A DNA stretch of 64,000 nucleotides, from NCBI GenBank assembly GCA_902776365.1, contig CACYPU010000010.1, positions 25,034 to 89,033 of the forward strand. The letters are read 5' to 3'. Shown here piece by piece: positions 2-61,917 of the stretch (position 1 is its first letter; each line of letters starts with the position of its first letter). This stretch comes from an uncultured Bacteroidota bacterium. Its GTDB lineage: Bacteria > Bacteroidota > Bacteroidia > Bacteroidales > P3. The notes beneath the pieces were generated by a model. That model did no database searches, had not been told where the DNA came from, and saw only the letters and a program-made list of their open reading frames with translations. A program made the translations under genes and the position numbers.

Positions 2-3000
2 AACATCACCCTGCGGGCCGACCAGATATCTAACTGGGAGCGCCGTACCGCCAGCGGCAACGGATATATGTACAGCGGCGCCATCGACAACCCCGCCTAC
101 ACTGCCGACGCGTGGCTCATCTCGCCAGCCATTCCGCTGCCGGCGGGGGCCAAAGTGCCGGTGATGTGGGACTACCGCGCTCTGCAATCGACCAACCGAT
201 ACGACACTCCGGTGATCGACGTGATGGTGGCAATATGCGACTCGACCGACGCCATCGACACAGCAGCTGCCGCATGGACCAAACTGATGACTCTTGAAGG
301 GATAGTGCCGAACTACAAGACCTACTGCCTAACACTCGAAGGCTACGGCGGCCACCGTGTGCGCGTGGCTTTCGCACGCCACGGCTTCTGCTTCGGCACC
401 GCCTATATCGACAATGTGCGCATAGGCACCGCCGACACGCTGGCACGCATCTACGCCCCGCTGCACCCTATGGTGGGTGAAAGCACCGAGCTGCGGGCTC
501 TGTATGTCGGTGTCGACACCATTGCGACTCCTTTCAACTGGAATTCCTCCAAGCATGACAACAACGAGGCCACTATGACAGCCCGGCCCGACAGCCGTGT
601 GGTCGACATCGTCTATGCCACTGCCGGCCTCGACACCATCACCCTGCAATACGGCACCCGTACCGACACCTTGGTGGTGCTGGTCAAGGACTGCGCCACA
701 GCGTCGAACTACCCCTGGCGCGACGACTTCGAGAACGGCACCGACTGCTGGACGCTGCCCTCCGACAATCGCTGGTACCTGCACCGCTACCCCAGTTGCG
801 CCTACGACGGCAACTGCTACATGCGTTCCAAAACGAATCCGGCGACCGCACACAACCGTCTGCTGTCGAACACCTTCGTGATGCCCTCGGCAGCCGATAT
901 CGCCTACCTGTCGCTGATATTCCAAGCCCGCAACACCTACGCTAACACCGATGCCCACCTCTCCGTATACTTCGCTCTGGACAGCAATAACACCGAGACG
1001 CTACTAATCGACACCGTGATAGGATGGAACACCTACAGGCAGATAATCGTTCCGCTCAGCAACCTGGCGGGGCAGACGGGCCACTTTGTCTTCGAGCACT
1101 GGACATCGTCGACTTCAACCACCCACGACATATACCTCGACAACGTGGAGGTGCGCTACGCCGCCAATCCTGTCATCACCCACAACATCCCCGACCATGC
1201 CTATGTCGGCGACACCAATACCTTCATCGCCACAATATCTGAAGGTGCAACCACTGGACTTACCTACAGTTGGCGCTCTACGATGCTCGACATAGGCAAT
1301 GCCGACACTATAGGCAATGGCCACGATGGCAACCTGCATATAGCCTATCTCTATGGCGGCGTCGACACCATCATAGTCACAGCCACAAACGCCTACGGCA
1401 GTACTAGCGATACCTCAATAATTACAATATGCGAGCCTATCGAACAGTTCCCGTGGCAAGCCAATTTCAACGACAGGGGCTGCTGGTACACCGCCGACGC
1501 ACAGGACTGGGCCATAGTCAATAATTATACCGTCAACCACAATGTGCTGTCGGCACGGGGCGACCTATCCACCCAGGGCACCATAGCACTGCCGACGATG
1601 CTTCTCCCAATGGATACCACCCTCACCCTCGATTACAAAACACGCGGCAATTCGGAGTACAGCGTGCTGCTGACCACCGGCCCCTATGGCAGCTACGACA
1701 GCGTGCTGTACAATGGCACGATAACCTCGGGAGGCGATTTCGCCTGGCAAAGCATCAGCCTCGGCGCCTACGCCGGGCAGAGGGTGCGCATAGCCTTCAG
1801 CAAACCACACAACTACGATGTCATACAGATTGACAGCATCATAGTGCGCAGCCACGCCCATCCCATCATTGTACTCGAAGCCCCGCGGCACGCCTTCACC
1901 GACGGCGCCGCCACAGCTACCGTACGCCTCACCCACGGCGACCCGACGACGATGGTATATCAGTGGCGCTCCACCCTGCTAGACACTACCGTCACCCAAA
2001 CCTCGCCGCTGATAAACCTCACCTACACAACCACCGGCATTGACACCATCAGCGTGGTGGGCGTCAACAACCATGGTGCCGACAGCGCAACGGCAGTGAC
2101 GGTGGTGACCACATGGGACACTCTGCAGGCGCCCTGCGTGGTCGACGACTTCGGTGGCGGCAACCTCGACCATTGGTATCAGGATGCCAAATGCTCGTGG
2201 CAGGAATATCTAGGCACAGGGCGCTCCTACTGGTACAACCGGACCGTCGACGCCCGCATAGTGTCGCGTGCCATCATGGTGCCCACCTGGGCCGACGACA
2301 GCCTGATGCTCGAATGGAAGGCCGCCGCCGAGAGACGCAACACCGCCATGCGCTACTATGTGCTGGCCACCACAGGCGACTACACCGACTATTCGCAGTA
2401 CGACACCCTCTACACTTTCGACACAGTGCTCAACACCGCCCAAGTTGCTTGGAACATAGGCCGTGCTGGCCTGGGGGCCTACGCCGGACAAACCATACAT
2501 GTGGCTTTCGTCAACCACCCCACAGCCACCTTCTACCAATACGACGCCCGTGCGCTGCGCATCGACGACGTGCAGATAGTCAACCTGCGGCTTCCTCATG
2601 TGAGGATTGTCAAACCCTCGGTGGCACATAGCGGCGAGCCGACCTTGGTGCGCGCCGAGCTAGTAGAGGGCTCGAACATAGGCGCCAGCTACACATGGCA
2701 TTCAACCATGGCCACCGCCGGACTGGCCACCATGACTGTAAACAACGACAGCCTGCATATCCACTACACTTCTGCCGGCACTGACACCATCAGCGTCAGA
2801 GTCGCCACCGCCTACGGTACCGACAGTGTCACCACCACCCTCGAAGTGCAGAACTGCGCCACGGTCAACACCCTGCCGTGGTCTGAAAACTGGCTCTACA
2901 CCTCGGGCCTCGGATGCTGGCGGTCGTACAACTTCACGCCCACCAACAACAGCGAATGGTGGTACAGCTACCAGAGCGGCATGCACAGCAGCCAATCGTA

Positions 3001-33900: not shown

Positions 33901-34442
33901 AACGCATAGCGCAGATACTTGCGGTTGGCCCTCAGGTTGATGGCATTGAGGAAGGGGATGGGGCGCAAGGCAGCGGTTTTCTGCTCGATGGCAGCCAACA
34001 ATAATTCTGAATTCTGTGCCGAAGGCTGCGAACACCTTGAAACATCAAGATATTGCAGTGAGTCAATTCTGAATTCTGAATTTCCGGAAACACCATCCAT
34101 CAGCTGCAGGAGGTTCAGCAGCTTGTCGCTCACCTCGGGGAAATGGCGTCCGATGATGCGTGCCGCCTGCGGCCGGTCGATACACTTGCCGAGGCCGTGC
34201 ATCTTCAGCAGCGGACGGATTACCAGCCAAGCCACCACAGCCGCCACCGCAGCCAGGCCTCCCCAGAAGAGGAGCGCCCTCGCCGTCGGCGACATCCAGC
34301 CGAAATGCTCCAGCAGCACCAGTGCCAGAAACAGCGTCAGCACGATGCCCACAGCATACAGCACACCTTTCAGCAGGAGGTTCTTGTAATACTTCCTGAT
34401 GAAGGCATCCAAAGCCTGCAATATGTCCGTCTGCGGTTTCAT
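30978..34442 (-). CDS. DUF4175 family membrane protein with large coiled coil
   Basis: The ATG at 34442 (MKPQTDILQALDAFI) is preferred; a start 27 nt upstream is possible. About 1,154 aa. Two N-terminal transmembrane helices (LLLKGVLYAVGIVLTLFLALVLL; ALLFWGGLAAVAAVVAWLVI) and a third near residue 190 (LRYALPPLAVIVLLLLVAPSV) are followed by an extracytoplasmic beta region, then about 500 residues of Gln/Glu/Lys-rich coiled coil (QKQKQVREMMQQMQQQIQ). It ends with a Gln/Ser/Lys-rich segment and LSPYYREKVNDYFY. The order DUF4175-HATPase-ybeY-mnmG appears to be a conserved group; role unknown. Two NSEF-type repeat insertions occur near residue 130. Confidence 0.85.
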   Translation of the reverse strand: MKPQTDILQALDAFIRKYYKNLLLKGVLYAVGIVLTLFLALVLLEHFGWMSPTARALLFWGGLAAVAAVVAWLVIRPLLKMHGLGKCIDRPQAARIIGRHFPEVSDKLLNLLQLMDGVSGNSEFRIDSLQYLDVSRCSQPSAQNSELLLAAIEQKTAALRPIPFLNAINLRANRKYLRYALPPLAVIVLLLLVAPSVITEPVKRIADYNTVYERPAPFRFIVTTDSLQVISGSDYELTVEVDGEALPNEVNIIVDGRRHRMTKLSKERFAFTFKQVRQSLGFSMEGGGVTSPEYRLEMLPNPSVVSFRMLLSYPAYTGRMPETVVNLGDAAVPEGTVVKWLFQTQDAQEMAFFVDSVPTRLESDASGRMEITRRVMQTINYAFCVSSRYSTSDTLRYSLSAITDAVPMIVVEEMVDSLHPDRRLFRGRIKDDYGFSSLVFVHKTENSSDASRNSVSEAKIALNGESSQEFFFSFNTAELTLAPGDELTYYFEVSDNDAIHGPKKARSQVFEIKIPSAEELDQILERSSNEVRESAETQMSELQKMQEEINEMMRRLVDKKELNWQDKKDLQQIQQKQKQVREMMQQMQQQIQENNRLEQKYREQSEQLMEKQRELDRLMNEVMDEKMKETMAEIERMMQELDKKKVQQELEQLKLDNAELEKQLDQNIELMKRLELEKKVEQTIQKMDKLAEDQRNVSRETEQAKDKNNEQLQQKQQELNNRFQELKNDIKQIQQDYKNLDPSTDFKVPEELEKQVEQHQQEAQRNLQKGKNKEAGKQQKEAADEMEQLSEALAEAQVEAEQEDLAEDAEQVRQLLKNLVKLSFNQEELITAVNSIYIQDPKYQTIITRQNRIKDDFRNVEDSLRSMARRQLNVASAITKELASVNNNVNASLNRLLELNQSFYGSYRNSQAAQSMQYSMTSLNNLALVLAESLDQMQNQMRQNSQKQKSGQCRNKGKSQSQCSNPGKGKPSPKSMRQMQEELNKQMEALKKQLDKQGNKQGGRHQIGQGQSMSEEFAKMAAQQEMIRRMMQEYGQELKQGNAGNTQLAREIDQLLQQMEQTETDLVNRTITQQTIKRQQQIMTRLLEHEKAEMQREKEERRESHEAGDLYSQPSPAELEKYNKQFKSASDQLRTVPPTLSPYYREKVNDYFYR
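32340..32355. other. parS-like site inside the DUF4175 gene
   Basis: TGTTTCACGCGAAACA, one mismatch to the parS consensus, coding for NVSRET on the minus strand. Confidence 0.55.
34003..34085 (-). repeat. Two AATTCTG heptad clusters inside the DUF4175 gene
   Basis: AATTCTGAATTCTG (about 34006-34019) and AATTCTGAATTCTGAATTTC (about 34066-34085) read in frame as NSELL and NSEFRI on the minus strand. Same family as in lysC and nadK. Confidence 0.7.
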
Positions 34443-34491
34443 CAGAAAAAGAAAACGCAACAATATCATTTTTATTATGGAACACGGGGAG

Positions 34492-34525
34492 AAAAAAAGA
34501 GGGCGTCCTTTTCAGACAACCCTCT
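34492..34525 (-). terminator. Rho-independent terminator after the small lipoprotein gene
   Basis: Minus strand: AGAGGG (complement of 34520-34525), loop, CCCTCT (34498-34503), then a run of T (34492-34497 region). Stands between the lipoprotein stop (34552) and the DUF4175 start. Confidence 0.7.
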
Positions 34526-34551
34526 CTGTGTTTTTAGGGAAAAGGAAGCTG

Positions 34552-34980
34552 TTATTCGATATTACCGAAATTGATGTATTTCTCGGTGATTTTTTTGGCC
34601 TCTTCCTCGTTCTCCGTGGCCCATTTGGTCCATTTCTCCTGGTAGGTAGCCATCTTCTCCTGGAGGGCTTTCTCGTCGGCATACTTGGAGTCGAACTCGG
34701 CAGCCACCTTGTTGATTTCCTCCTGGGTGATACCGCTCACGTCCATTTTCATCATCTCGGAAGTGAGTTTCATCATAGCCTCATAGCCTTCGGCGCTGGG
34801 TTCCTGCTCCATGATGTTGACCATCTGGTCGCTCATTTTAACCATCTGAAGGGCCTTGCTGTCGTCGGCCTTGATTTCGTTTTTGGTGGTCTTGCCATCC
34901 TTGCTGACGGTGTCGCCACCGCAGGCGACCATCATGCCCACGAGGGCAATCATGGCAAAGAAAGAAAAAACTTTTTTCAT
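34552..34980 (-). CDS. Small helical lipoprotein, unknown function
   Basis: 142 aa from the ATG at 34980 (MKKVFSFFAMIALVGMMVACGG); an upstream ATG adds three residues. Lipobox-like VGMMVACGG with Cys near residue 20. The mature part is Lys/Glu-rich and helical (QEEINKVAAEFDSKYADEKAL), with KWATENEEEAKKITEKY near the end. No recognised family. It has its own terminator and is divergent from the SDR gene at 35116. Confidence 0.75.
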   Translation of the reverse strand: MKKVFSFFAMIALVGMMVACGGDTVSKDGKTTKNEIKADDSKALQMVKMSDQMVNIMEQEPSAEGYEAMMKLTSEMMKMDVSGITQEEINKVAAEFDSKYADEKALQEKMATYQEKWTKWATENEEEAKKITEKYINFGNIE

Positions 34981-35090
34981 TTTATACATTTTTTAATTAA
35001 CAATTTGACTTATAAAAAAATACGTCATTTACCATTTCATGTATGGAATACAAATATACGAAAAAATGCTGACACTTGCGGTTTTTTTCG

Positions 35091-35098
35091 TAACTTTG
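35091..35098 (+). promoter_or_regulatory. TAnnTTTG promoter box for the SDR gene
   Basis: TAACTTTG, 17 nt before the ATG at 35116. No clear -33 element. Confidence 0.5.
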
Positions 35099-35115
35099 CA
35101 AAAAAATTGGAAAAC

Positions 35116-35916
35116 ATGCAACAGATCATCATCATCACCGGCGCCTCGTCGGGCTTCGGGAAGGCCACGGGCGAGCTGCTGGCTTCGAAAGGTCACACCG
35201 TCTACGGCCTTTGCCGCCGCGAGATGCAGGATACCACTATAAAGTACCGCCAATGCGATGTGCGCAACCGCGAGCAGATAGCCGCTGTGGTGGCCGATAT
35301 CGTCAAGGAGCAGGGTAGGGTAGACGTGCTGGTGAACAACGCCGGCATGGGCATCGGCGGCGCCCTCGAGTTGGCCACCGAGGAGGAGATAGACCTCCAG
35401 ATGGGCACCAACTTCATGGGGTGCGTGAACATGTGCCAAGCCGTGCTGCCCTATATGCGCAAGGCTCGCAAGGGCAAGATTATCAACCTCAGCTCCATCG
35501 GCGGCGTGATGGGCTTGCCGTACCAAGGCTTCTACTCGGCCTCGAAGTTCGCCATTGAGGGCTTCACGGAGGCTCTGAGCGCCGAGGTGCGGGGATTCGG
35601 CATCAAGGTGTCGATGGTGGAGCCGGGCGACTTCGCCACAGGCTTCACGGGCAGCCGCAAGAACAGCCAGGCGACGATGGATGACCCCGACTACGGCCCT
35701 ATCTTCCGCCGTTCGCTCGACATCATCGAGAAGGAAGAGAACGGAGGCCTGCAACCCGAGGTGCTGGCACGCCGCATCGCCAAGATGGTGGAACAGAAGA
35801 ACCCGCCGCTACGCAAGGTGGTGGCCAACCTGGAGCAGAAACTCTCGGTGGTCATCAAGCGGGTGCTGACGGGCAACCAAATGGTGGGGATTTTGAGAGG
35901 ATACTATAAGTCTTGA
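35116..35916 (+). CDS. Short-chain dehydrogenase/reductase
   Basis: 266 aa from the ATG at 35116, which follows a promoter box; the frame is open far upstream but that part lies antisense to the lipoprotein gene and does not look like protein. Motifs: TGASSGFG (NAD(P) binding, residues 8-15), NNAGMG, catalytic Ser in NLSSIGG, YSASK (Tyr-x3-Lys), and VEPGDFATGF. Predicted cytoplasmic oxidoreductase, substrate unknown. Ends before a repeat array and a bidirectional terminator. Confidence 0.88.
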   Translation: MQQIIIITGASSGFGKATGELLASKGHTVYGLCRREMQDTTIKYRQCDVRNREQIAAVVADIVKEQGRVDVLVNNAGMGIGGALELATEEEIDLQMGTNFMGCVNMCQAVLPYMRKARKGKIINLSSIGGVMGLPYQGFYSASKFAIEGFTEALSAEVRGFGIKVSMVEPGDFATGFTGSRKNSQATMDDPDYGPIFRRSLDIIEKEENGGLQPEVLARRIAKMVEQKNPPLRKVVANLEQKLSVVIKRVLTGNQMVGILRGYYKS

Positions 35917-36599: not shown

Positions 36600-37295
36600 C
36601 TATTCCTCCTGCTCGTCGGAATCCTCAGATTCCTTTTTTTGAGTGGGTTGGGGGTCCCAAGGCTCGTTGCACAACACCCAGATGGGTGGGGTTCGGTACA
36701 GTTTACGGCCAAAAGTATGAAATTGCTTCAGGGTTTCAGGCATACCACATAGGGAACTATCGTAATTCCCATCCTCATCCAGAGGTGCAGCTATCGACGC
36801 AGGGGCGGGACTACCCATGCGACCACTTAGGTTCCACAAACGCGGGTCGTCAGGGCTGGTAATCAATAGGCCCATCCTGTAGAGCAAATTCCGTGTGCCA
36901 CGTATATTCACGGGCTGCAGCCATACTATATTGGGATGATTGGGAGGTAGGGGAAGCTCGCCAACACCGGCAGGGGGCGGCGTGACGATACTACGCACGC
37001 GGCTGTCGCGTCTCAAACTCAACCCTTTGTAGCACATCATGGTGTCGCCAAACTGGGTGACGAGGAAGGTGTAGCTTCCTGCCGTAAGGGTCGGCATCAC
37101 AAAGCGTCCGTCATAGTCGGTGAAGGCCGAAGCCACACAGTGTCCCTCCTGCAGCAGCTGCACATTGCACAAGGGCAACACGTTGCCGTCCACCTCATTG
37201 ACTACAATGCCCTCCACCGTCAGGCTGTCGACCTGCGAACGGGCGACGACCGCAACCGTCAGCGCCATCAAAGCTATGAGAAAACGAGGCTTCAT
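36600..37295 (-). CDS. Exported protein with carboxypeptidase-regulatory-like domain
   Basis: 231 aa. Signal peptide (MKPRFLIALMALTVAVVARSQ), then a carboxypeptidase D regulatory-like beta-sandwich at about residues 25-110: VEGIVVNEVDGNVLPLCNVQLL, DYDGRFVMPTLTAGSYTFLVT. The C-terminal half (residues 120-231) is Pro-rich, with no known domain, and ends in an acidic tail. Such domains are common on Bacteroidota outer-membrane and surface proteins. First gene of the leftward accessory cluster at its 3' side. Confidence 0.75.
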   Translation of the reverse strand: MKPRFLIALMALTVAVVARSQVDSLTVEGIVVNEVDGNVLPLCNVQLLQEGHCVASAFTDYDGRFVMPTLTAGSYTFLVTQFGDTMMCYKGLSLRRDSRVRSIVTPPPAGVGELPLPPNHPNIVWLQPVNIRGTRNLLYRMGLLITSPDDPRLWNLSGRMGSPAPASIAAPLDEDGNYDSSLCGMPETLKQFHTFGRKLYRTPPIWVLCNEPWDPQPTQKKESEDSDEQEE

Positions 37296-37336: not shown

Positions 37337-38326
37337 CTATATCCTCATCTTTATCCAAAGAGTGTCGCCGGCATAGAGATTGTACTGGTAGATGCCGTAG
37401 AAACAGCCTAATTTTGAGGGGAGCTCGAAAGTACATATCCCTTGGCAACGTTTCGAAGAGACCACACGGCCGTACCTGTCGTAGAAGACCACCCATTCGC
37501 CGTCTAGACCGCTGACGGTGAGTATGCTGCCCGTGATGGCGATGGTCGCTGGACGCAGCTGTCGGACAGAGGGTGGAGGAGGGGCTTCACCGAAACTGAT
37601 AAAATCCGTTGACGAAAAGTTGATGTGCTCTATGGGCGGCTGCACTTCCCTTGCCTCGGGCACAGAGGATTCTTCCTGAGGCTGCACACTATCAATCTCT
37701 ACGGGCGGGGCAGGGGAGGGGACGGCGGGGACGTTGACAGGGACAGTGTCCTCCGCCGCCGGCTCGCCACTGTTGAAGACCCGCTGCCTCCACTGTGGCA
37801 CCACGGCCACGGCGACAGTGCTGGCCACAAGCAACAAAAGCGCCAGCAGCATCGCCTTGCGGGCCTTCACCACCGCACGGTGCATGCGCTGGTAGACGGT
37901 GTCGTGGCTGAGGTTCATCAGATTGGCAATCTCTTTGGTCTTATAACCCTCAAGATAGAGACTCACCAAGCGTTGCTCCTCGGGGCTGAGGGCGGCCATC
38001 AACTCCTCTATCTCCTCCTGTGTATGCCGAGTGTCCTCGTCGGCCACGGTTTCCTCCAGCAGGGTGGTTAACGGCTGCATGGGAGGCTTCTGGAGACGGC
38101 GCTGGAGGTCGAGGGTAGAGCGGCACTGCCAGTAGATCCAGGCGCGTTTCTCGGCGGGAGTGGCGTCGGGCCGCAGAGCGTCGAAATGGAGCCACAGGGC
38201 GATGGAGACCTCCTGCACCAGGTCGTTGCAGCGGTCCCAGTTGCCTCTGGCCCTGAACCAGCACATGCGCCACACCAGCGGGCGGTAGCGCTCCAGCATC
38301 TCGGTATATGCCCTCTGTCTGTCCAT
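37337..38326 (-). CDS. Membrane-anchored ECF sigma factor fused to an exported C-terminal domain (1)
   Basis: 329 aa from the ATG at 38326 (MDRQRAYTEML). Residues about 1-75 are sigma region 2 (YRPLVWRMCWFRARGNWDRCNDLVQEVSIALWL), about 100-160 region 4 (ELMAALSPEEQRLVSLYLEGYKTKEIANLMNLSHDTVYQRMHRA). Directly after region 4 comes one hydrophobic helix (MLLALLLLVASTVAVAVVP), a Pro-rich stretch and a beta-rich end (LTVSGLDGEWVVFYDRYGRVVSS) that resembles a T9SS sorting domain. Predicted topology: sigma part in the cytoplasm, tail outside. Preceded by the shared upstream element (38336-38384). Similar to the genes at 38403 and 43645. ECF proteins with C-terminal extensions are known; this particular fusion is not one I recognise. 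Confidence 0.82.
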   Translation of the reverse strand: MDRQRAYTEMLERYRPLVWRMCWFRARGNWDRCNDLVQEVSIALWLHFDALRPDATPAEKRAWIYWQCRSTLDLQRRLQKPPMQPLTTLLEETVADEDTRHTQEEIEELMAALSPEEQRLVSLYLEGYKTKEIANLMNLSHDTVYQRMHRAVVKARKAMLLALLLLVASTVAVAVVPQWRQRVFNSGEPAAEDTVPVNVPAVPSPAPPVEIDSVQPQEESSVPEAREVQPPIEHINFSSTDFISFGEAPPPPSVRQLRPATIAITGSILTVSGLDGEWVVFYDRYGRVVSSKRCQGICTFELPSKLGCFYGIYQYNLYAGDTLWIKMRI

Positions 38327-38335
38327 CTCTATAAA

Positions 38336-38384
38336 TATAATACACATCCAACGCCGAAAATCTGACATTGGATGTGCAAAAATA
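38336..38384 (-). promoter_or_regulatory. Shared sigma-cluster upstream element, copy 1
   Basis: Minus strand order: TATTTTTG (38384-38377), then inverted repeat CACATCCAA/TTGGATGTG (38376-38343) around the loop TGTCAGATTTTCGGCG, then TATTATA (38342-38336), 10 nt before the ATG. TGTCA and TATTATA start 25 nt apart, as in all copies. Confidence 0.75.
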
Positions 38385-38402
38385 CGAAATAATTTTTTCT
38401 CT

Positions 38403-40745
38403 CTACCTAATCACCACTACTTTCTGCAACGGGCGGGTGCCAATTTTGACCAGGTAGACACCCGGAGCAGGAACCCTGAGGCTACAACGACCACGGGCGA
38501 TGCCGTCGGCCACCTGGCGGCCCTCCATGTCGTAGACCACTACCACCTCACCCTCTGCACCCTCGACGACGATGTTCTGATAGGCGGCACTAAAGATGCT
38601 CACCTCCGGCAGCTCCACCTCGGGCACCGCCTCGCAGTCGTCTTGGATATTCACAAAATAGTTCCAGTAAGGGGCGTTGCGGTAGGCCGCGACGCTGCCA
38701 CAGGGGACGATGAGGACAAGGTTGCGGTTCATCTGCTTAAAGGTGTTGGCAAAGGCCACGGGCGGCACCGGGGCAAGGGAGATGAGGGTGTCAATGTTTC
38801 GGCACTGGAAGAAGGCGGCCTCGCCAATATGGGTGAGACCTGCAGGTAACGTGAGTGTCGTAAGTTCCCAGCACTCGTGGAACGCCGCAGAGTCGATATA
38901 CACCACCGTGGAGGGGATATTCACCTCCTCCAAGCCTGTGCAGCCAAAGAAGGTTTGGAAACGGATGGTGTCGATGCCTTCGGGAAGCCGTATCTTCTTG
39001 ATGCTGCCGGAATAGTTGTAGCAGAAAGCCATACGCCCGATATACTGCACCGAGTTGGGAACAATTATAGAGTCAAGATGAGTGCATGAATTGAAAGCCC
39101 CATTGTCAATGAATGTCACACGGTTGCCCAGTTCAATATTCTTCATGTTGCTGTAGGCGAAAGCCCCATTGCCGATAGACAACTCGGCATCGTCGATGGT
39201 CACAGTGGCACTTGGCAAAAAAGCCGAATAGAACGCCGACTTGCCTATATGTTTTACCGTCGAGGGAATGGTAATCCCCTCCAACCCTTCACATACGCCG
39301 AAAGCTTGATTGCCAATGGTGTCGAGCCCTTCAGGGAGCGTGACGGAGGTCAACGATGATATATAGTAGAAGGCTCGTGTACCGATAACGCGAACAGTTG
39401 CAGGCACCACTACCGAAGTGATATGCCGGCTGGCGGTGAGGCGGGTCTTGCTGTTGTCGGAATAGAAGAGGCTGTCTTCTTCATAGCCGTTCACCGTGTT
39501 GGCGCCCCAAGGACTTCCCATAGCGGTGCCGTGATAAATAACATTGGGCACCAGCGAGAAAGCCTTGTTGCCAATGACCGTAACCCCGTCGGGGACGGTT
39601 ATCGTCTCAATTTCCAGATGGCTTTGAAAGGCTTCCTCGGCCACCTCGGTGACGGCGTATCTCACGCCCTCATGCTCCACGCTGTCGGGCAGCACAAGGT
39701 CGGCACTATAGTGGATGTAGTGCGTGTTGTACGACCATTCGTCGCCACGCACGCTGACGTGGTGCTGCGCCGAGTCGACGATGGTGCAGAGGAGGGTGTC
39801 GCCCTGCGGGGTGACGGCTTGGAAATCGTAGGCCACCTGTGCTTGTGTGGCGGTGACCAAAGCCAACAATGCCGCTGTCGTAGCGGTCCGTTTCAATGAA
39901 ATATTCATACTGTCGATTTTTAGGGTGTCGTTCTCCACGAAGGCCTGCGGAAAATTTCCCGTGGCCGTGACGGCGTAGTTGCTGGAGGTGCGTGTGTAGG
40001 TGATGGAGCTGTCGTTGCGGCACCAGGTGACGGACCAGCCCTCCATCCCCACGCCCACATACTCCCAGTTCACCACCACTTCGGGATCCTGCTTTTCCTC
40101 GCTGGCGCTGTCGGCCACCGAGGGCAGGGCAAGGGAGGAGGCGGCAGGGATGTTGACAGAGACCGTGTCCGCCGCCGCTGGCTCGCCGCGGCCAAAGACC
40201 CACCGTCGCCACGACGGCACCACGGCCACGGCGACAGTGCTGGCCACAAGCAACAAAAACAACACCAGCAGCGCCTTGCGGGCCTTCCCCAGGGCACGGT
40301 GCAGGCGCTGGTAGACAACCTCGCGGCTGAGGCCCATAATCGAGGCTATCTCCTTGGGGCGGTAGCCTTCTATGTGAAGGCGCACCAACTCCTGTTCCGC
40401 AGGGCTGAGAGCGGCCATCAGGTGCTCCATCTCCTCTTTCTGCACCAGCAGGTCGTCGGCAGCCACCGTGTCGGCCACCATGGCCGTCAGCGGCAGCAGC
40501 GAGGGGCGCTCCTTGCGACGCTGCAGGTCGAGCACCGAGCGTGTCCACCAGCGTACCCAGGCCTTCTCCTCCTGAGGCACCGCGTCGGACCGCAACTCGT
40601 CAAAATGAATCCACAGCGTGATGGAGACCTCCTGCAGCAGGTCGTTGCAACGGCTTTTGTTGCCGCGGGCAGACTTCCAGCACAAGGCCCACACCATCCT
40701 CCGGTGGCGCTCCAACAGTTCTGTAAATGCACTATGACGGCTCAT
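38403..40745 (-). CDS. ECF sigma factor fused in frame to a BspA-like LRR surface protein with T9SS sorting domain (2)
   Basis: 780 codons without a stop. Residues 1-170: sigma region 2 (HRRMVWALCWKSARGNKSRCNDLLQEVSITLWIHF) and region 4 (SPAEQELVRLHIEGYRPKEIASIMGLSREVVYQRLHRAL), then a transmembrane helix (LLVLFLLLVASTVAVAVVP). A 90-residue exported stretch follows, then at residue 280 a Met opening what looks like a complete signal peptide (MNISLKRTATTAALLALVTATQAQ, ATG at 39908). The rest is BspA/LRR_5 repeats (TVIGNKAFSLV, LPEGLDTIGNQAF, SIGNGAFAYSN) and a type A sorting domain (VVVVYDMEGRQV ... GVYLVKIGTRPLQKVVVIR). Either one giant protein, or two genes whose boundary lacks a stop, with a second start at 39908 (501 aa). 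Confidence 0.8.
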   Translation of the reverse strand: MSRHSAFTELLERHRRMVWALCWKSARGNKSRCNDLLQEVSITLWIHFDELRSDAVPQEEKAWVRWWTRSVLDLQRRKERPSLLPLTAMVADTVAADDLLVQKEEMEHLMAALSPAEQELVRLHIEGYRPKEIASIMGLSREVVYQRLHRALGKARKALLVLFLLLVASTVAVAVVPSWRRWVFGRGEPAAADTVSVNIPAASSLALPSVADSASEEKQDPEVVVNWEYVGVGMEGWSVTWCRNDSSITYTRTSSNYAVTATGNFPQAFVENDTLKIDSMNISLKRTATTAALLALVTATQAQVAYDFQAVTPQGDTLLCTIVDSAQHHVSVRGDEWSYNTHYIHYSADLVLPDSVEHEGVRYAVTEVAEEAFQSHLEIETITVPDGVTVIGNKAFSLVPNVIYHGTAMGSPWGANTVNGYEEDSLFYSDNSKTRLTASRHITSVVVPATVRVIGTRAFYYISSLTSVTLPEGLDTIGNQAFGVCEGLEGITIPSTVKHIGKSAFYSAFLPSATVTIDDAELSIGNGAFAYSNMKNIELGNRVTFIDNGAFNSCTHLDSIIVPNSVQYIGRMAFCYNYSGSIKKIRLPEGIDTIRFQTFFGCTGLEEVNIPSTVVYIDSAAFHECWELTTLTLPAGLTHIGEAAFFQCRNIDTLISLAPVPPVAFANTFKQMNRNLVLIVPCGSVAAYRNAPYWNYFVNIQDDCEAVPEVELPEVSIFSAAYQNIVVEGAEGEVVVVYDMEGRQVADGIARGRCSLRVPAPGVYLVKIGTRPLQKVVVIR

Positions 40746-40751
40746 ACACTA

Positions 40752-40800
40752 ACTAATACACCTCCGACACCCAAAATCTGACATCGGAGGTGCAAAAATA
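40752..40800 (-). promoter_or_regulatory. Shared sigma-cluster upstream element, copy 2
   Basis: TATTTTTG (40800-40793), inverted repeat CACCTCCGA/TCGGAGGTG (40792-40759) around TGTCAGATTTTGGGTG, TATTAGT (40758-40752), 7 nt before the ATG. Compared with copy 1 the stem has two compensated base-pair changes. Confidence 0.75.
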
Positions 40801-40812
40801 TGAAAAAAAAAT

Positions 40813-41718
40813 TTATTTGTCCTGCACTAGGCGCACCGAGAAGGCGTTGCTGCGACCCTCGCCGTCGCTGGGATAAAGCATGCTTTCGTTGAAGAGGAGG
40901 CCAAGGGCACAATCGGTATATTCGGCACCGTAGGGCGAGACCGACCAATAGACCCCATACTGGTTTTCATAGTTGAAGAAGGTGTACTGTCGGTATCCCG
41001 CCGCAGGCAGGAAGATGGCTCCGGCAGCCTCCAGGCATTCCCATTGCTCCATGGTGTAGGCATTGGCGTTGAACCCATTGTGGGCAGGAGTAAAGCTAAT
41101 GCCGTCGGGAGCCGTCCACTCGTCGGGCAGGAGGATGAGACCTTTGTAGCGGCCATCAATAGTGGCACGGCCCCATTTACTGGGACGGCTGCCGCCACCG
41201 AAGAGGTAGGCCCATTCCACATTGGTAAGCGTGCGCCACATGCCCGCATGGTTGCCGCCATTCGAGATGGCATTGTACACGCCCCAATCAGCATTGGCGT
41301 AATCGCCCGTAAGGCTGTTCTGCCAGCTGCCGCCGGGCTGATAATCGGCATCGTCGATACTGACAGACCACGGCTGGTAGGCGTTGGCGCCGCTCTCCCA
41401 TCCGCTGGTACCCCAGCCGAAACAGTCAATCCAGCCTTCGTTGCTTGGAGAGACAGCATTGTTGGCCGCTCCCATCACCTCATACTGCTTCGCGGCGAAA
41501 CGCCAGGTGTCGGTCGAGGCCTGATACTGCAGGTTGCCCCGCGAGATGCGCACCTGCCTGTTCGCTGCCACCGAGAAAAGCGCCTTGCTGGCACCGTTGG
41601 CATCGAAGGGGTCTGTCGTCTCTGTCTGGGCCGGGGCATCGTCCTTGCTACAAGAGGTGACTGCCATCATGGCCGCTGCTAGCAGCAGCAATACTGAAAA
41701 ACGGTTTGTTTTCATCAT
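40813..41718 (-). CDS. Surface lipoprotein, major-paralogous-domain-like
   Basis: 301 aa with lipoprotein signal (MMKTNRFSVLLLLAAAMMAVTSCSKDD; Cys near residue 23). The mature part is rich in Trp, Tyr, Gly and Asn: FSVAANRQVRISRGNLQYQAS, WRTLTNVEWAYLFGGG, LPDEWTAPDG, AAGAIFLPAAGYR, GVYWSVSPYG. This order resembles the FISUMP/'major paralogous' proteins of Bacteroidota and Fibrobacteres, anchored at the outer membrane. Ligand unknown. It lies between a sigma-fusion gene and a BspA-like gene, all leftward. Confidence 0.75.
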   Translation of the reverse strand: MMKTNRFSVLLLLAAAMMAVTSCSKDDAPAQTETTDPFDANGASKALFSVAANRQVRISRGNLQYQASTDTWRFAAKQYEVMGAANNAVSPSNEGWIDCFGWGTSGWESGANAYQPWSVSIDDADYQPGGSWQNSLTGDYANADWGVYNAISNGGNHAGMWRTLTNVEWAYLFGGGSRPSKWGRATIDGRYKGLILLPDEWTAPDGISFTPAHNGFNANAYTMEQWECLEAAGAIFLPAAGYRQYTFFNYENQYGVYWSVSPYGAEYTDCALGLLFNESMLYPSDGEGRSNAFSVRLVQDK

Positions 41719-41734
41719 CTTTGTTTTTGGTTTT

Positions 41735-43534
41735 TTATTTCATTACTACAATTTTCTGTGCCGGGCGGTCGCCGACCTTCACAATATAGACCCCCGTCGG
41801 CAGTGCCTCATTGCGGACGCTGCGGCCGGTGATGTCGAAGATGCGGACGGTCTCGCCCTCGGCACCGTCCACGATGATGCGGCCTCCGAGGGTGTAGATG
41901 TTGATGTTTTCCACATCGGGATCGCCGATGCCCACGCTGCAGTCCTCGACATAGCGGTCGGCGAATTCTTGCCAATAGCTGTCAGCCAGCCAGGCATCGA
42001 GATTACCACAAATGGCGATGGTATCAATCTGACCTATCATGTAGAGGGGACCTTCACCCTTGATGGCAGGGGGCAAGCCGCCAGTGAAGCGTATCTTTTG
42101 GATGTTGGCACTCTCGAAAACAGCGGTGCCCAGGGTGTCCACCTGTCCGTGGAAGGTCACCGAGCGCAGATTGTTGGTGCATGCACCGAAAGCGCAATCG
42201 CCGACCTTCCTCAGCGATGCCGGGAGGTCAAGATTAGTGATATGAGTTGAACTATATTGCGACAATGCCCAGAAGGCATAGTCTCCAATCTCCTCAACGA
42301 CGTTGTTCCAGGTGATGGAGCCGAGTCTTATGCACGAGTTGAAGGCCTCTTTGGGGATGATGCGCAGCGAATCGGGGATGACGATGGAGGTCAGCGCATA
42401 GCAGTGCTCGAACGCACCTTGTCCCATCGAGCGCAGCGTCTGCGGCATGGTGACGCTGGCCAGCCGGTCGTTCTCCGAGAAAGCTTTTCGGCCTATCGAC
42501 TTCATGTGTCTCGGCAGCGCGATGCTAGTAATCTGGCATCCGTTGAAGCAGTTCTCGGTGATGTCGGTCACAGTCTCGGGGATGGTGATATTCCGCACCC
42601 AAGTGTTGTTCTCGAAGCCGCCCAAGACTTTCATGTTTGGGTTCAGGGTCACGGTGGCGCCCGACTTGTGGCACGAAACCAGCGTGTCGTATCCTGCGCT
42701 GTATACCATCAGGCCGTCCATCACATAATGTGTGTTGCCCTCGGCAATGGAGAGGTTGTTCATCTGCGGACAATAGGAGAAGGGGTTGACGCCGATGTGT
42801 GTCACCGTCGAGGGGACGACAATACCGTCGACCGTCGCGCAACAGTTGAAGGCGAAGTCACCGATGGAAACCAATCCCTCGGGCAGTGTGACCGATGTGA
42901 TGTGGCTGCAGAAGCCGAAAGCCATCTTGCCGAGATGCTGCACGAATTGTGGCACCGCGACGGCACCCGTCTCCCCGCTGGGTACGATGCAGAGCGTCAA
43001 ACTGTCCTTGCTGTAGAGCCATCCGTCGATGGAACGGTAGCGGGGATTGGCCTCGTCGACCGTGATACTCATCAGGTTCCGTGCCCAGAAAGAGCACTCA
43101 TCATACTCTTCAAAGCAGGCCGGCAGGTGTAGCGACGAGATGCTGGAGTAGAGGAAGGCGTGGTCGTCGATGCGGCGCAACGAGTCAGGCAGCTGCAGCG
43201 TCGTGAAAGTGCAGTTATAGAAGCAATGCGACCCGATGCTGCGAATGGTTGGCGGCAGGGTGAGACTGGTCATGGTGGTGCAACTCTCGAAAGCAACTTC
43301 GCCCAATGCTGTCACCGTGTAGGTGGTGCCGTCATACTCCACCGTCTGTGGAATGACGATAGAGCCGCTGTAGGGAGTGTTGTGCAAATAATAGTTCGAC
43401 AACACTTCGACGGTCTGCTCAGAAGTGATGCCATAGACGATACCGTCCGATTCAAAATATTGAGCGGAAGCCACGGCTGGCAAGCTTGCCGCCACCAAAA
43501 GGGCAGCGAGGAATTGAATGATGCGATGTTTCAT
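41735..43534 (-). CDS. BspA-like leucine-rich repeat surface protein with T9SS sorting domain
   Basis: 599 aa. Signal peptide (MKHRIIQFLAALLVAASLPAVASAQ), then about a dozen LRR_5 (BspA) repeats of about 23 residues: VTALGEVAFESCTTMTSLTLPPTIRSIG, LRRIDDHAFLYSSI, LVSIGDFAFNCCATV, MKSIGRKAFSENDRL. The end is a type A sorting domain: IYTLGGRIIVDGAEG, VRIFDITGRSV, GVYIVKVGDRPAQKIVVMK. Such proteins bind host or bacterial surfaces in other species. Its upstream region carries copy 3 of the shared sigma-cluster element, 47 nt before the start. Confidence 0.9.
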   Translation of the reverse strand: MKHRIIQFLAALLVAASLPAVASAQYFESDGIVYGITSEQTVEVLSNYYLHNTPYSGSIVIPQTVEYDGTTYTVTALGEVAFESCTTMTSLTLPPTIRSIGSHCFYNCTFTTLQLPDSLRRIDDHAFLYSSISSLHLPACFEEYDECSFWARNLMSITVDEANPRYRSIDGWLYSKDSLTLCIVPSGETGAVAVPQFVQHLGKMAFGFCSHITSVTLPEGLVSIGDFAFNCCATVDGIVVPSTVTHIGVNPFSYCPQMNNLSIAEGNTHYVMDGLMVYSAGYDTLVSCHKSGATVTLNPNMKVLGGFENNTWVRNITIPETVTDITENCFNGCQITSIALPRHMKSIGRKAFSENDRLASVTMPQTLRSMGQGAFEHCYALTSIVIPDSLRIIPKEAFNSCIRLGSITWNNVVEEIGDYAFWALSQYSSTHITNLDLPASLRKVGDCAFGACTNNLRSVTFHGQVDTLGTAVFESANIQKIRFTGGLPPAIKGEGPLYMIGQIDTIAICGNLDAWLADSYWQEFADRYVEDCSVGIGDPDVENINIYTLGGRIIVDGAEGETVRIFDITGRSVRNEALPTGVYIVKVGDRPAQKIVVMK

Positions 43535-43580
43535 TGTTTGTATCTGTTTTGGTTGTTAAACATTTCAGCTCTTCTATAAA

Positions 43581-43621
43581 TATAATACACCCCTAACACC
43601 CAAAATTTGACATCGGATGAG
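43581..43621 (-). promoter_or_regulatory. Shared sigma-cluster upstream element, copy 3 (LRR gene)
   Basis: Minus strand TGTCAAATTTTGGGTG, then TATTATA (43587-43581) at the same 25-nt offset. The inverted repeat is degenerate (CATCC against GGGGTG). The stretch GTATTATATTTATAGA is identical to copy 1. Confidence 0.7.
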
Positions 43622-43644
43622 AAAAAAGATTTAGATGATATCGT

Positions 43645-44787
43645 TTAGAACATTAGTATCCGCTGGGTCGAGGCAGGGATAGGATGTGTCGGATTCCCTC
43701 GGGGGGGGTGTTTGATGAAGACCTTCTGCCGCGGGCGGTTGCCTACCTGCACCCAGAAGGCGCTGGTTCCTGAGTTTGTGGTTGGGGAATAGGAATAGTC
43801 CTGCATCCCGAGGGTAAGCACACAATGGTCGTTACACCGCGCTGTGGCCACCAGACGTCCCTGAGCGTCGAAAACATCGACACGTTCATCCCTGACGCCT
43901 TCCACCACGATGTTGTTCCCCACCACACGGATGGTCATGTCGCTTTCTTCTTCCTGCAGCTCCTCGTCGGTGTCGTCGAAGGGAACGCAGTCGGCACGCT
44001 GCACGCCACCGCGGGCACTGTCGGGGCAACCACAAGGGTCGCTAAGGGTCGGCGGAAGGACTGGCAACGCTGTATCGTCAACAGGGACGAGGTGGGAGAG
44101 AGGCTCCGATGGAATCCAAGTGCGGTGGACAACGACGGTATCCGCCACACTGTCGGCAACCGGCAGCGAGGCGGTGGGGAGAGCGGCAGGGACACCGACA
44201 GGGACCGTATCACCCACCGCTGGCTCGCCGCCACCGAAGACCCGCTGCCGCCACGACGGCACCACCGCCACGGCGACAGTGCTGGTCACAAGCAACAAAA
44301 ACAACACCAGCAACACTTTGCGGGCTTTGGCCATAGCGCGGTGCATGCGCTGATAGACGGTGTTGCGACGGAGATTCATCTTCTCGGCAATCTCGTCGGC
44401 ATGGTAGCCCTCGATGTGCAGCCGCATCAGCTGCTGCTCCTCGGGACTGAGGGCCGCCATCAGCTCTTCGATGTCCTCGCCTGCAGCACTATTGTCGGCA
44501 TCGGGGATGCTCTCGGCCATAGCTTCCGTCAGCGCCACCATCGGCGGCCGCTGGCTGCGGTGCAGATGGTCGAGGGTGGTGCGCGTCTGCCACCGCACCC
44601 AGGCCTTCTCCTCCTGGAGAGAGACTCCCGGGCGCAACTTGTCGAGATGCAGCCAGAGGGCAATGGAGACCTCCTGCACCAGGTCGCGGCAACGCTCATA
44701 GTCGCCCCGTGCACGCACCCAGCACAGGCGCCACACCATCGGGAGGTGACGCTTCAACAATTCGGTGTATCTGCTCTGTCGGTCCAT
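43645..44787 (-). CDS. Membrane-anchored ECF sigma factor fused to sorting-domain-like C terminus (3)
   Basis: 380 aa. Region 2 (HLPMVWRLCWVRARGDYERCRDLVQEVSIALWLHL), region 4 (SPEEQQLMRLHIEGYHADEIAEKMNLRRNTVYQRMHRAM), transmembrane helix (VLLVLFLLLVTSTVAVAVVP), a long Pro/Val/Ser/Asp-rich linker, then NIVVEGVRDERVDVFDAQGRLVATARC and FWVQVGNRPRQKVFIKHPP. This C-terminal part matches the type A sorting domain of the LRR proteins nearby (compare NIVVEGAEGEVVVVYDMEGRQV). It continues about 20 residues beyond the usual sorting-domain end. Paralogue of the genes at 37337 and 38403. Confidence 0.82.
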   Translation of the reverse strand: MDRQSRYTELLKRHLPMVWRLCWVRARGDYERCRDLVQEVSIALWLHLDKLRPGVSLQEEKAWVRWQTRTTLDHLHRSQRPPMVALTEAMAESIPDADNSAAGEDIEELMAALSPEEQQLMRLHIEGYHADEIAEKMNLRRNTVYQRMHRAMAKARKVLLVLFLLLVTSTVAVAVVPSWRQRVFGGGEPAVGDTVPVGVPAALPTASLPVADSVADTVVVHRTWIPSEPLSHLVPVDDTALPVLPPTLSDPCGCPDSARGGVQRADCVPFDDTDEELQEEESDMTIRVVGNNIVVEGVRDERVDVFDAQGRLVATARCNDHCVLTLGMQDYSYSPTTNSGTSAFWVQVGNRPRQKVFIKHPPRGNPTHPIPASTQRILMF

Positions 44788-44794
44788 CTACCAA

Positions 44795-44826
44795 TATAAT
44801 ACCCACTTTTTAGCCGAAATCTGACA
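44795..44826 (-). promoter_or_regulatory. Shared sigma-cluster upstream element, copy 4
   Basis: Minus strand TGTCAGATTTCGGC (44826-44813), then TATTATA (44801-44795) 25 nt after the T of TGTCA, 7 nt before the ATG. No inverted repeat; instead TAAAAAGTGGG fills the spacer, which resembles the spacer of the variant at 61346. Confidence 0.7.
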
Positions 44827-44982: not shown

Positions 44983-46098
44983 TTAGAGAGCTTTGCCGAA
45001 GACGGCGCGTTGCATGAGGGGGGTGGTGTGGTACTGCGTCTCCCAGATTTTGACGGCTTCGTTGCCGATAATCTGGGGGTTGGTGTAGGCGGTATGGACG
45101 TTAAACTTGATGGCGGCCTCGTTCATGTCGCAGTAGTAGATGCTGTGGACGCCGCGTTTCTGCCATTCGGGGAGGACGCCGTTGAGGAGGAGGTCGATGG
45201 TGTCGAATTTGCGGAAGGCCTTCAGGATGTGGTACCAGCCGAAGGGGAAGAGGCGGCCGTTGGCTTTCTTGTAGGCGGCGTTGAGGTCGGGGATGGAGAG
45301 GCCGAAGCCGACGAGATGGTCGTTCTCGTCGACGACGAATTGGACGAAGTCCATGTTGACGAAGGGGAAGTATTCCTTGATGTAGACGTCGATTTCCTTC
45401 TCGGTCATGGGTACGAAGTCGTAGAGGTCCTTGAAGGAGTCGTTGATGGCGTGGAAGAACTGCCAAGCGTAGGGGATGAGTTCCTTGCGGTGTTTCACCT
45501 TGACGAGGCGGAGGTGGTACTTCTCCATGATGAGGGTGTTGAGGCGAGCGACCTTGTCGGGGACGGGCTGGTTGGCGGGCATGACGTACTGCTGCCATTT
45601 GCAGCGGATGTCATAGCCGGCGCGCTCGATGAACTTGATGTAGTATTCGGGGTTGTAAAGGGTGGAGATGTTCTGTCGGGCGTCGAAGTTGTCGATGACC
45701 CAGCATTCCTTGTCCATATCGGTGAATCCGAAGGGGCCTTCGATTTCGGTCATGCCGTTGCGCTTGCCGTATTCCGCCACCTTGTCGAGGAGGGCTTTGA
45801 AGACCTCATAGTCCTCGATGAAGTCGAACCATCCGAAGCGCACGGCTTTCTTGTTCCAGTGCTCGTTGACGCTGCGGTTGATGATGGCTGCTACGCGGCC
45901 CACAATCTTGCCGTCCTTCTCGGCGAGGTAGAGCTCACGGGAGCAGTGCTCGAGCGACGGGTTCTTGTCGGTGAGGAGCTTGCGTTCGTCGCTGTTGAGG
46001 GCGGGGATATAGGAGGGGACGCCCTTGAAGAGCTTGTTGGGGAAGGCGATGAACTTGCGGAGGTCGCTACGGCTTTCAACGGTGCGGATGGTGGTCAT
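44983..46098 (-). CDS. GNAT-like protein linked to serine palmitoyltransferase
   Basis: 371 aa, no signal peptide. N-terminal KFIAFPNKLFKGVPSYIPALNSDERKLL and YLAEKDGKIVGRVAAIINRS are typical of a conserved Bacteroidota family of two-lobed GNAT-fold proteins (YghO-like). The second lobe has FVVDENDHLVGFGLSIPDLN. It lies 13 bp downstream of spt and on the same strand, so an acyltransferase role in sphingolipid or long-chain base metabolism is possible; the substrate is not known from sequence. Confidence 0.78.
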   Translation of the reverse strand: MTTIRTVESRSDLRKFIAFPNKLFKGVPSYIPALNSDERKLLTDKNPSLEHCSRELYLAEKDGKIVGRVAAIINRSVNEHWNKKAVRFGWFDFIEDYEVFKALLDKVAEYGKRNGMTEIEGPFGFTDMDKECWVIDNFDARQNISTLYNPEYYIKFIERAGYDIRCKWQQYVMPANQPVPDKVARLNTLIMEKYHLRLVKVKHRKELIPYAWQFFHAINDSFKDLYDFVPMTEKEIDVYIKEYFPFVNMDFVQFVVDENDHLVGFGLSIPDLNAAYKKANGRLFPFGWYHILKAFRKFDTIDLLLNGVLPEWQKRGVHSIYYCDMNEAAIKFNVHTAYTNPQIIGNEAVKIWETQYHTTPLMQRAVFGKAL

Positions 46099-61317: not shown

Positions 61318-61377
61318 GGACGAAATGTTAAAAAAATGGCCCAAATGTCCTTTTTGGGCTAAAAAATGGCTATATAT
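61318..61377 (+). promoter_or_regulatory. Upstream element of the split sigma locus
   Basis: CGAAATGTTAAAAAAA, then GCCCAAATGTCC and TTTTTGGGC. TGTCC (61346) is followed after 25 nt by TATATAT (61371-61377), the same offset as in the sigma-fusion cluster; the spacer TAAAAAATGGC resembles copy 4 (TAAAAAGTGGG). Also nearly the same as 62793-62830. Confidence 0.6.
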
Positions 61378-61389
61378 ATGTATATATAT

Positions 61390-61917
61390 ATGCCTCTCCG
61401 TCGAGCGATGAACGAAAAACTCCATAGTGCCGCCGCCCGCTACAGCGAGCTCCTACGCCGCCACGAACGTATGCTTCGCTGGCTCTGCCTGCGCCGTGCC
61501 TATGCCGACATCGAGCTCTCCGACGACTACTTCCAGGAGGTCTGCCTCTTCCTCTGGCGACAGCTCCCCTCCCTCCCTTCCGGCATGCCCTACAAGCAGG
61601 AACGTCTCTATGTCAAGAAACTCGCCGTTTCCGCCCTCAGCCGCTGCTCCCGCAAGAATCGTCCCGACGTGAGGTGTATCGACCCCGAGATGATTATCGC
61701 CGTCGACCAGCATGCCAAGGAAAACGAGCAGCTCCTCAACGACCTCGTCGACGCCCTCCCCGGGGACGACCGCCTCGTCGTGGGACTCTACCGTGCCGGC
61801 TACGAGGTGGCCGAGATAGCCCTCTACCTCGGCATCAGCCCCAATGCCGCCAGCCACCGCCTCCGCCGGGCCATCGCCAGGATGCAGTCCATAATGGAAA
61901 AAGAAAACAATATATAA
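61390..61917 (+). CDS. ECF sigma factor (stand-alone)
   Basis: 175 aa from the ATG at 61390, or 169 aa from 61408 (MNEKLHSAAARYSELL). Region 2 is HERMLRWLCLRRAYADIELSDDYFQEVCLFLW. Region 4 is LVDALPGDDRLVVGLYRAGYEVAEIALYLGISPNAASHRLRRAIARMQS. Same architecture as the fused sigma factors but without transmembrane helix; the next gene supplies one. Initiates a rightward unit of small exported proteins, with the shared element directly upstream. Confidence 0.82.
   Translation: MPLRRAMNEKLHSAAARYSELLRRHERMLRWLCLRRAYADIELSDDYFQEVCLFLWRQLPSLPSGMPYKQERLYVKKLAVSALSRCSRKNRPDVRCIDPEMIIAVDQHAKENEQLLNDLVDALPGDDRLVVGLYRAGYEVAEIALYLGISPNAASHRLRRAIARMQSIMEKENNI

Follow-up and report, generated by a model that had tools for sequence, protein, structure and literature searches.

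The stretch analysed here (the window) comprises 64,000 nucleotides of contig CACYPU010000010.1 from GenBank assembly GCA_902776365.1, the genome of an uncultured Bacteroidales bacterium (GTDB lineage P3; G000 below; 18 contigs, 2.23 Mb, 89.65% completeness). Three of its minus-strand genes each encode an extracytoplasmic function (ECF) sigma factor that continues in the same chain into a membrane helix and a tail predicted to lie outside the membrane. The genes and the segments of their products are as follows.

37337..38326, minus strand: fused sigma gene 1, P0001, read from its second Met (329 aa), with regions 2 and 4, a membrane helix, a linker and a short beta end (Pfam, start choice).
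37799..37855, minus strand: membrane helix of P0001 (hydrophobicity).
38403..40745, minus strand: fused sigma gene 2, P0002, 780 aa (Pfam, AlphaFold2, internal Met).
40218..40274, minus strand: membrane helix of P0002 (hydrophobicity, AlphaFold2).
39837..39908, minus strand: internal signal-peptide-like segment of P0002, residues 280-303, whose position matches the signal peptide of the stand-alone BspA homologues L138 and L155.
43645..44787, minus strand: fused sigma gene 3, P0003, 380 aa (Pfam, NCBIfam, AlphaFold2).
44260..44316, minus strand: membrane helix of P0003, which in the model directly prolongs the final helix of sigma region 4 (AlphaFold2).

Both regions that characterize an ECF sigma factor score above the curated cut-offs in all three proteins. 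For P0001, P0002 and P0003 in turn, the Pfam family Sigma70_r2 gives 25.5, 25.7 and 31.4 bits (cut-off 24) and Sigma70_r4_2 gives 44.7, 38.5 and 43.6 bits (cut-off 25.7), which bears out the sigma assignment made from the letters alone in an earlier note on this DNA. TIGR02937 of NCBIfam scores 72.4, 67.1 and 74.0 bits (cut-off 42.9), and the top Foldseek matches are chains of ECF sigma factors. The open frame of P0001 runs from 37337 to 38368 and the start at 38326 is preferred over the longer one at 38368, which begins with MSDF and is the promoter-like element described below translated as codons. At most about 8 residues after region 4, each protein has a single strongly hydrophobic helix, and the chain goes on through a linker rich in proline to the outside domain. 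The order read earlier, with regions 2 and 4, one hydrophobic helix and an outside tail, holds for all three genes by Pfam, TIGR02937 and AlphaFold2, and this architecture points to a topology with the sigma part inside and the tail outside. No FecR-type periplasmic domain appears, as no FecR family is among the Pfam matches of the three proteins at E<=1.

AlphaFold2 was run without templates on alignments of 11 rows for P0003 and 7 rows for P0002. In P0003, region 2 occupies residues 10-80, region 4 104-154, the membrane helix about 158-176, a low-confidence linker 185-281 and a beta-sandwich 285-359, and the tail extends about 20 residues beyond the last strand. The model (mean pLDDT 63.6, pTM 0.29) contains an unbroken helix at 141-175, in a block with pLDDT of about 59-78, that leads from the end of region 4 into the membrane segment. 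The low confidence of the linker probably reflects disorder. P0002 has region 2 at 10-79, region 4 at 104-152 and the membrane helix at about 158-176, then a beta domain (222-264), the signal-peptide-like segment (280-303), BspA leucine-rich repeats (LRRs) and an end (716-778) like the C-terminal domain (CTD) of proteins secreted by the type 9 secretion system (T9SS). Its model (mean pLDDT 70.0) gives a helix at 141-184, the beta domain, a helix at 277-304, the BspA repeats and the end domain. An entire BspA LRR protein, signal-peptide-like segment included, is contained within P0002.

The spread of the family was followed with a profile (A3) of region 4 plus membrane helix, built from 17 of 27 fused proteins; fused proteins match it to profile position 82 or beyond and sigma-only matches end at 57-63. 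The search of other Bacteroidales genomes called for in the earlier note found the same domain order again, with 74 fused genes in 54 of the 120 genomes of the genus surveyed, G000 among them. Of their frames, 13 have at least 700 residues, four have 450-700 and 57 are shorter. Across the order (393 genomes, threshold 1e-12, no more than 13 candidates scored per genome), only G000 and one congener, the latter with a sigma-only match, were found, and the 391 other genomes gave no fusion; more distant fusions could be missed, because A3 derives from the genus and few candidates per genome were scored. A plasmid collection yielded only two actinobacterial sigma-only matches. The closest named relatives number five (L031-L035); one record mentions yak rumen, three carry RUG isolate names, which denote rumen assemblies, and three are filed as Bacteroidales. 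Nineteen distinct loci with the family were compared for synteny (L040 duplicates L032, and L054 has a cut sigma gene). Nine are flanked by one and the same pair of genes, which are homologous to the window gene 44983-46098 and to a short-chain dehydrogenase overlapping 34399-35916; two have one of these neighbours and eight have neither.

That the fusions are run-on genes, frameshifts or assembly errors is very improbable. P0002 does look as though two genes had merged, having an internal Met next to a signal-peptide-like segment, but the reading frame is unbroken across its junction. Of 12 long fusions, the 11 that were parsed all have a Met and no stop at the internal junction (L095 extends off its locus), the twelfth (L034), unparsed at the junction, has an open frame, and a split partner, L089, retains the same segment in frame. 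Given such open frames and the recurrence in 54 genomes, we reject a frameshift or assembly artefact. P0002 may give two products through its internal Met. The A content of the 17 nt before the start (5-8 for the internal Mets, 7 for P0005, 11 for P0004 and 13 for P0006, neighbouring genes listed below) fails to discriminate on this point, because real sigma starts are also low, at 3-5.

Six sister genomes (G010, G012, G081, G087, G093 and G100), and probably a seventh (G101), carry operons in which the sigma factor and its membrane partner are encoded separately, in at least two of them (G010 and G012) at the same syntenic place as the fused genes. In these two, the sigma gene encodes 155-156 aa and its end overlaps by 4 nt the gene for a single-pass membrane partner. 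This partner begins with an additional segment, its helix resembles the one in the fused forms, and its outside parts resemble those of P0002. Four of the six operons have a 4-nt overlap and one has an 8-nt overlap; in the sixth (L110) the genes overlap and the start is unfixed. The extra cytoplasmic segment, about 45 residues long, is missing from the fused forms. Its consensus by eye, LQ.FD...L...MTDGL..WC, is common to the small membrane partners of ordinary sigma genes; a profile of 13 such partners scores all six split segments at 18.7-34.3 bits (best of 600 shuffles 13.2), and hhalign relates the two kinds of segment at 96%. Run on 27 fused proteins, the split-segment profile gave a best score of 1.0 bit among the matches listed. 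In G000, a membrane partner stands directly behind 11 of the 13 other sigma genes examined, none of which is fused (the count leaves out a sigma match at C1:27818, and region L078 gave no sigma match to the query). Compared with their split homologues, the fused proteins look like a sigma factor joined directly to the helix and tail of its partner, without the partner's cytoplasmic segment; we infer the direction of change between the two forms.

Ordinary sigma genes of G000 (L080, L082, L084, L085, L086 and others) overlap tiny single-pass membrane proteins whose cytoplasmic segment is short and rich in W and R. Four small partners (L080, L016, L017 and L021) match no Pfam family above its cut-off, and these proteins are possibly an undescribed type of anti-sigma factor. 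A further ECF sigma gene of the window (61366-61917, plus strand; L087) has no membrane partner that could be found directly behind it.

The four promoter-like elements at the locus, all located by motif search, are as follows.

44797..44826, minus strand: element before P0003, TGTCAGATTT-N14-GTATTA.
43583..43612, minus strand: element before the BspA gene P0004, TGTCAAATTT-N14-GTATTA.
40754..40783, minus strand: element before P0002.
38338..38367, minus strand: element before P0001.

These are the only exact matches to TGTCARATTT-N14-GTATTA in G000, and they end 8, 9 and 11 nt upstream of the fused sigma starts and 48 nt upstream of P0004. Two mismatches add one site in G000 (L162, with no clear gene behind it; reversed control 2), and up to three mismatches give four matches in the window against 0.41 expected, a number reached in none of 100 shuffles. 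In the genus, 79 exact sites occur in 38 of the 120 genomes and the reversed control has none. Of the 57 genomes with a fused or split family member, 35 contain the element, against three of the 63 without one (Fisher 6e-12, a value made too small by kinship among the species and by a search for split forms that was not exhaustive). Among the sigma genes inspected, 26 of the 32 fused and two of the six split ones have its first box no more than 130 nt away, the upstream window of L089 being based on a guessed start; in the split operons L049 and L050 a full element stands further upstream, before an earlier gene. For 32 of the 79 sites, a fused or related sigma factor has its region 4 at a distance of 200-520 nt downstream (46 region-4 matches given).

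The genes behind 31 exact sites, most of them away from sigma loci, were read. They encode BspA proteins (11, three of them cut by the end of the stretch or contig), CarboxypepD-type proteins (nine), lipoprotein-like proteins (four, with the lipobox judged by eye), sigma factors (two) and a TonB-dependent receptor, 166 nt from its site; four are unclear or at a contig end. The CarboxypepD-type group consists of one P0005-like protein and eight proteins of about 431 aa with a signal peptide and CarbopepD_reg_2 (L131, L134, L135, L139, L147, L152, L156 and L158), a domain that Pfam places at 28-110 in L131, leaving the remainder of that protein unassigned, and that the other seven share by eye. 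Where the gene is clear, the element is linked mostly to exported proteins, and it may be the promoter used by the fused sigma factors. In the elements before P0001 and P0002, the first box lies between the arms of a perfect 9-bp inverted repeat. Dyad pairing over all sites is higher than in shuffles (mean 5.35 against 4.81; 3 of 2000 as high); an RNA hairpin as a general feature of the element was dropped, as the perfect dyad is found at only six of 34 distinct sites, all close relatives.

Most tails are by sequence comparison homologous to exported products encoded behind the element. A profile was made from 12 product-type BspA ends, of which eight belong to genes that follow exact sites. 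It scores 22 of 27 fused tail ends (16 of 21 short, all six long) higher than the best shuffle (9.3 bits); L035, L041_9145, L042 and L043 (7.3-9.1 bits) and L052 fall under it. The tail of L052 differs and matches two element-linked lipoprotein-like proteins, L148 and L153 (41.6 and 33.1 bits; best of 4000 shuffles 25.0); its own copy of the element contains mismatches. The stand-alone BspA protein L155, encoded behind an element, shares 77.5% identity with a P0002-type fusion, and the signal peptide of L155 aligns with the internal hydrophobic segment of P0002; the tail of P0002 thus resembles an entire exported pre-protein fused in frame. Sigma part and tail are exchangeable between family members: L039_5657 and L031_8001 share 46% identity over the sigma part and 96% over helix and tail, and L041_9145 joins a P0002-type sigma part (80%) to a short tail nearest L035 and L043 (63-66%). 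In the first pair (L039:5657-6808 and L031:8001-9143), a sigma swap, identity jumps at the junction of region 4 and the membrane helix. The tail might be a decoy, a product copy competing for an exporter or surface partner so that export or display is measured, with recombination at the membrane junction giving new pairings of sigma and tail; this is an idea to which we assign a rather low probability.

The earlier note saw in the tails of P0002 and P0003 a clear likeness to the type A sorting domain of the T9SS as found on neighbouring BspA proteins. The resemblance to the BspA end stands, as a profile of BspA end domains scores P0002 at 69.0, P0003 at 39.6 and P0001 at 14.9 bits (best shuffle 9.3), but the sorting-domain profile proposed as the check fell short. 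TIGR04183 gives the P0002 tail 20.5 bits in the genome search, below its cut-off of 23, P0001 and P0003 are absent from the genome-wide list at E<=0.001, and the family is not among the best 25 NCBIfam families listed for P0001, P0002 and P0003 (of 73, 45 and 56). The neighbouring P0004 likewise scores 17 bits. With hhalign, the fused tails match 20 cargo domains at 87% probability (short set) and 94% (all tails) and the sigma-domain and linker controls stay below 1% (linker 0.4%); the linker control reached 43.5% over 18 columns against BspA ends, because the slice extended into the end domain. Foldseek lists the RgpB CTD 7pq4 (E 1.9e-3, TMt 0.51), and beta-glucuronidase domains give similar scores; the fold is therefore a common beta-sandwich. 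The YPNP motif of ordinary cargo sorting domains is missing from the end domains, some tails have residues beyond the last strand, and 26 of 27 score higher with the product-type BspA profile than with the ordinary, YPNP-type cargo profile, two scores that are not strictly comparable because the best shuffles differ (9.3 against 4.5 bits). The end domains are probably remote homologues of the type A sorting domain, and a link of the tails to the T9SS is possible and partly supported.

Such a link would, as the earlier note proposed, allow the fused proteins to sense the state of secretion, T9SS parts such as PorV and PorM engaging the CTD-like tail and the state of the machinery setting sigma release. 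G000 has three PorV-family matches above the cut-off and 42 TIGR04183 matches, 39 of them above it, and the BspA products carry the same CTD variant as the tails. A precedent exists in Porphyromonas gingivalis, where PorA, a CTD protein whose CTD binds PorV, affects the ECF sigma factor SigP through PorXY, although there the CTD belongs to a separate surface protein and acts through a two-component system (PMC7712824). Set against this are the sub-threshold tails with their departures from ordinary sorting domains, the different tail of L052 and the N-terminus of the fused proteins, which is the sigma domain with the first helix at about 158 and thus no N-terminal Sec signal peptide (no signal-peptide predictor was run), so that they are not normal T9SS cargo. 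This special case of an outside sensor is rather doubtful. Elsewhere in the window, a large protein (68-4603, plus strand) has a strong ordinary sorting domain, with 58.9 bits for TIGR04183.

Architecture, split homologues and the shared promoter-like element lend good support to the interpretation of each fused protein as a single-protein, membrane-tethered sigma factor that has its sensor on the outside. The further proposal of the earlier note, that the tail controls release or activity of the sigma factor, stays conjectural. The closest known counterpart is IutY of Pseudomonas putida (ECF243), in which a cytosolic ECF sigma factor and a periplasmic anti-sigma domain lie in one chain on either side of a single membrane segment and the sigma factor is freed by Prc and RseP (PMC5411451, PMC8999054). 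IutY differs in having a cell-surface-signalling anti-sigma domain and a receptor partner, IutA; the tails described here are BspA- or CTD-like, or lipocalin-like in L052 (a name given by eye), and mostly genes for exported proteins are linked to the element.

We consider it reasonably probable that the fused proteins are IutY-like tethered sigma factors, freed by intramembrane proteolysis, that autoregulate and sense through a copy of their own export product. While the protein is uncut, region 4 would be held against the membrane and the sigma factor would be unable to work, because in the model its last helix continues into the membrane helix. A signal at the tail would, by analogy with IutY, lead to a cut outside and then to an intramembrane cut by an RseP-like protease; G000 has an RseP-family gene above the cut-off. 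The free sigma factor would then transcribe its own gene and those of exported proteins through TGTCARATTT-N14-GTATTA. Since the tail is in most cases homologous to the products, it probably senses what the products meet, whether exporter, partner or ligand, and a partner or ligand common to both would give a product-matched feedback.

Several points weigh against this mechanism. The signal, the first protease and the cleavage of the fused sigma factors are conjectural. All truncated forms of IutY are highly active, and those that keep the membrane segment act through RseP and are undetected without it (PMC5411451), so that inhibition by the tether as such is unproven for IutY too. None of eight split or small partners scanned has a match to a Pfam anti-sigma family, and their identity as anti-sigma factors is deduced from gene position and topology. 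The element could serve another sigma factor: 22 of the 57 family genomes have no exact copy, and the three copy-bearing genomes among the other 63 have no family member that was found. In the sigma tree the fused state requires three changes (34 rows in one tree, 27 in the other), and a single fused clade is weakly rejected (AU p 0.036) in a tree with long and mosaic rows, so that several fusion events or fission are possible; a single clade of the split rows is not rejected (p 0.395).

ToxR-type activators work while membrane-bound. The fused sigma factors might likewise be active while tethered, the tail altering only shape or oligomeric state, and the sequence does not demand cleavage. However, there is almost no spacer between region 4 and the membrane helix, which should hinder binding of DNA and core polymerase, and IutY is cut by RseP; we regard activity in the tethered state as improbable.

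In another variant the outside domain would act as in RsgI, reporting the presence of a glycan or surface to which both it and the exported BspA proteins bind. Domains are common to tails and products, and the low-confidence linker of about 97 residues could span the periplasm. In cellulolytic clostridia the outside sensor modules of SigI/RsgI are related to the controlled products, sigma-I operons are usually autoregulated and there is a correlation between each regulon and an anti-sigma factor that senses a target polysaccharide, although SigI and RsgI are two separate proteins and SigI is without an ordinary region 4 (PMC6056542). Most tails are short, with 57 of the 74 frames below 450 residues, and those read contain a CTD-like domain without LRRs. 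A ligand sensor of this kind is rather doubtful as well.

Three further genes at the locus complete the picture.

41735..43534, minus strand: P0004, a BspA LRR protein with a signal peptide (by eye) and a sorting-domain-like end (Pfam, NCBIfam, element).
40813..41718, minus strand: P0006, encoding a lipoprotein-like product (by eye) and placed 16 nt behind P0004 (position, homologues).
36600..37295, minus strand: P0005, an exported (by eye) CarboxypepD_reg-like protein, 41 nt after P0001 (Pfam).

P0004 is a probable product of the regulon and probably shares an operon with P0006, homologues of which stand elsewhere (L041, L146) directly behind an element. P0005 scores 32.0 bits for CarboxypepD_reg (cut-off 32.3), and its distant homologues lie directly before the sigma gene in the split operons L049 and L050.

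Single-chain sigma/membrane proteins are already known from IutY, ECF48/52/53 and Dma3. Dma3 of Bacteroides thetaiotaomicron has an N-terminal sigma domain, and the Dma family shares with the fused proteins the phylum, a membrane helix, a long disordered tether and an outer domain (PMC13088901). Dma2 and its kin differ in having an anti-sigma binding domain and a terminal beta-barrel, neither of which is seen here; the AlphaFold2 models of P0003 and P0002 end in a small beta-sandwich, or in LRRs and a beta domain, and have no C-terminal outer-membrane beta-barrel. In ECF48/52/53 (for example SCO4117 of Streptomyces) the sigma factor is also joined to a membrane helix, followed in ECF52 by a proline-rich region and an outside domain (PMC5826349, PMC8999054), but their extension includes a zinc-finger segment, of which there is no Pfam match at E<=1 in the fused proteins. 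Among the matches listed from open-licence PubMed Central, there is no paper on the fused family, the element, the loss of the segment as seen through split homologues or the product-copying tails.

If the proposed mechanism is true, these proteins would be a very simple link from the outside to transcription in a Gram-negative cell, made by one protein without a separate anti-sigma segment. The split and fused forms, which coexist within a genus and have the promoter-like element in common, offer a natural series for testing what such a segment is needed for, and because tails match products, a feedback from protein export or surface display can be put to a direct test.

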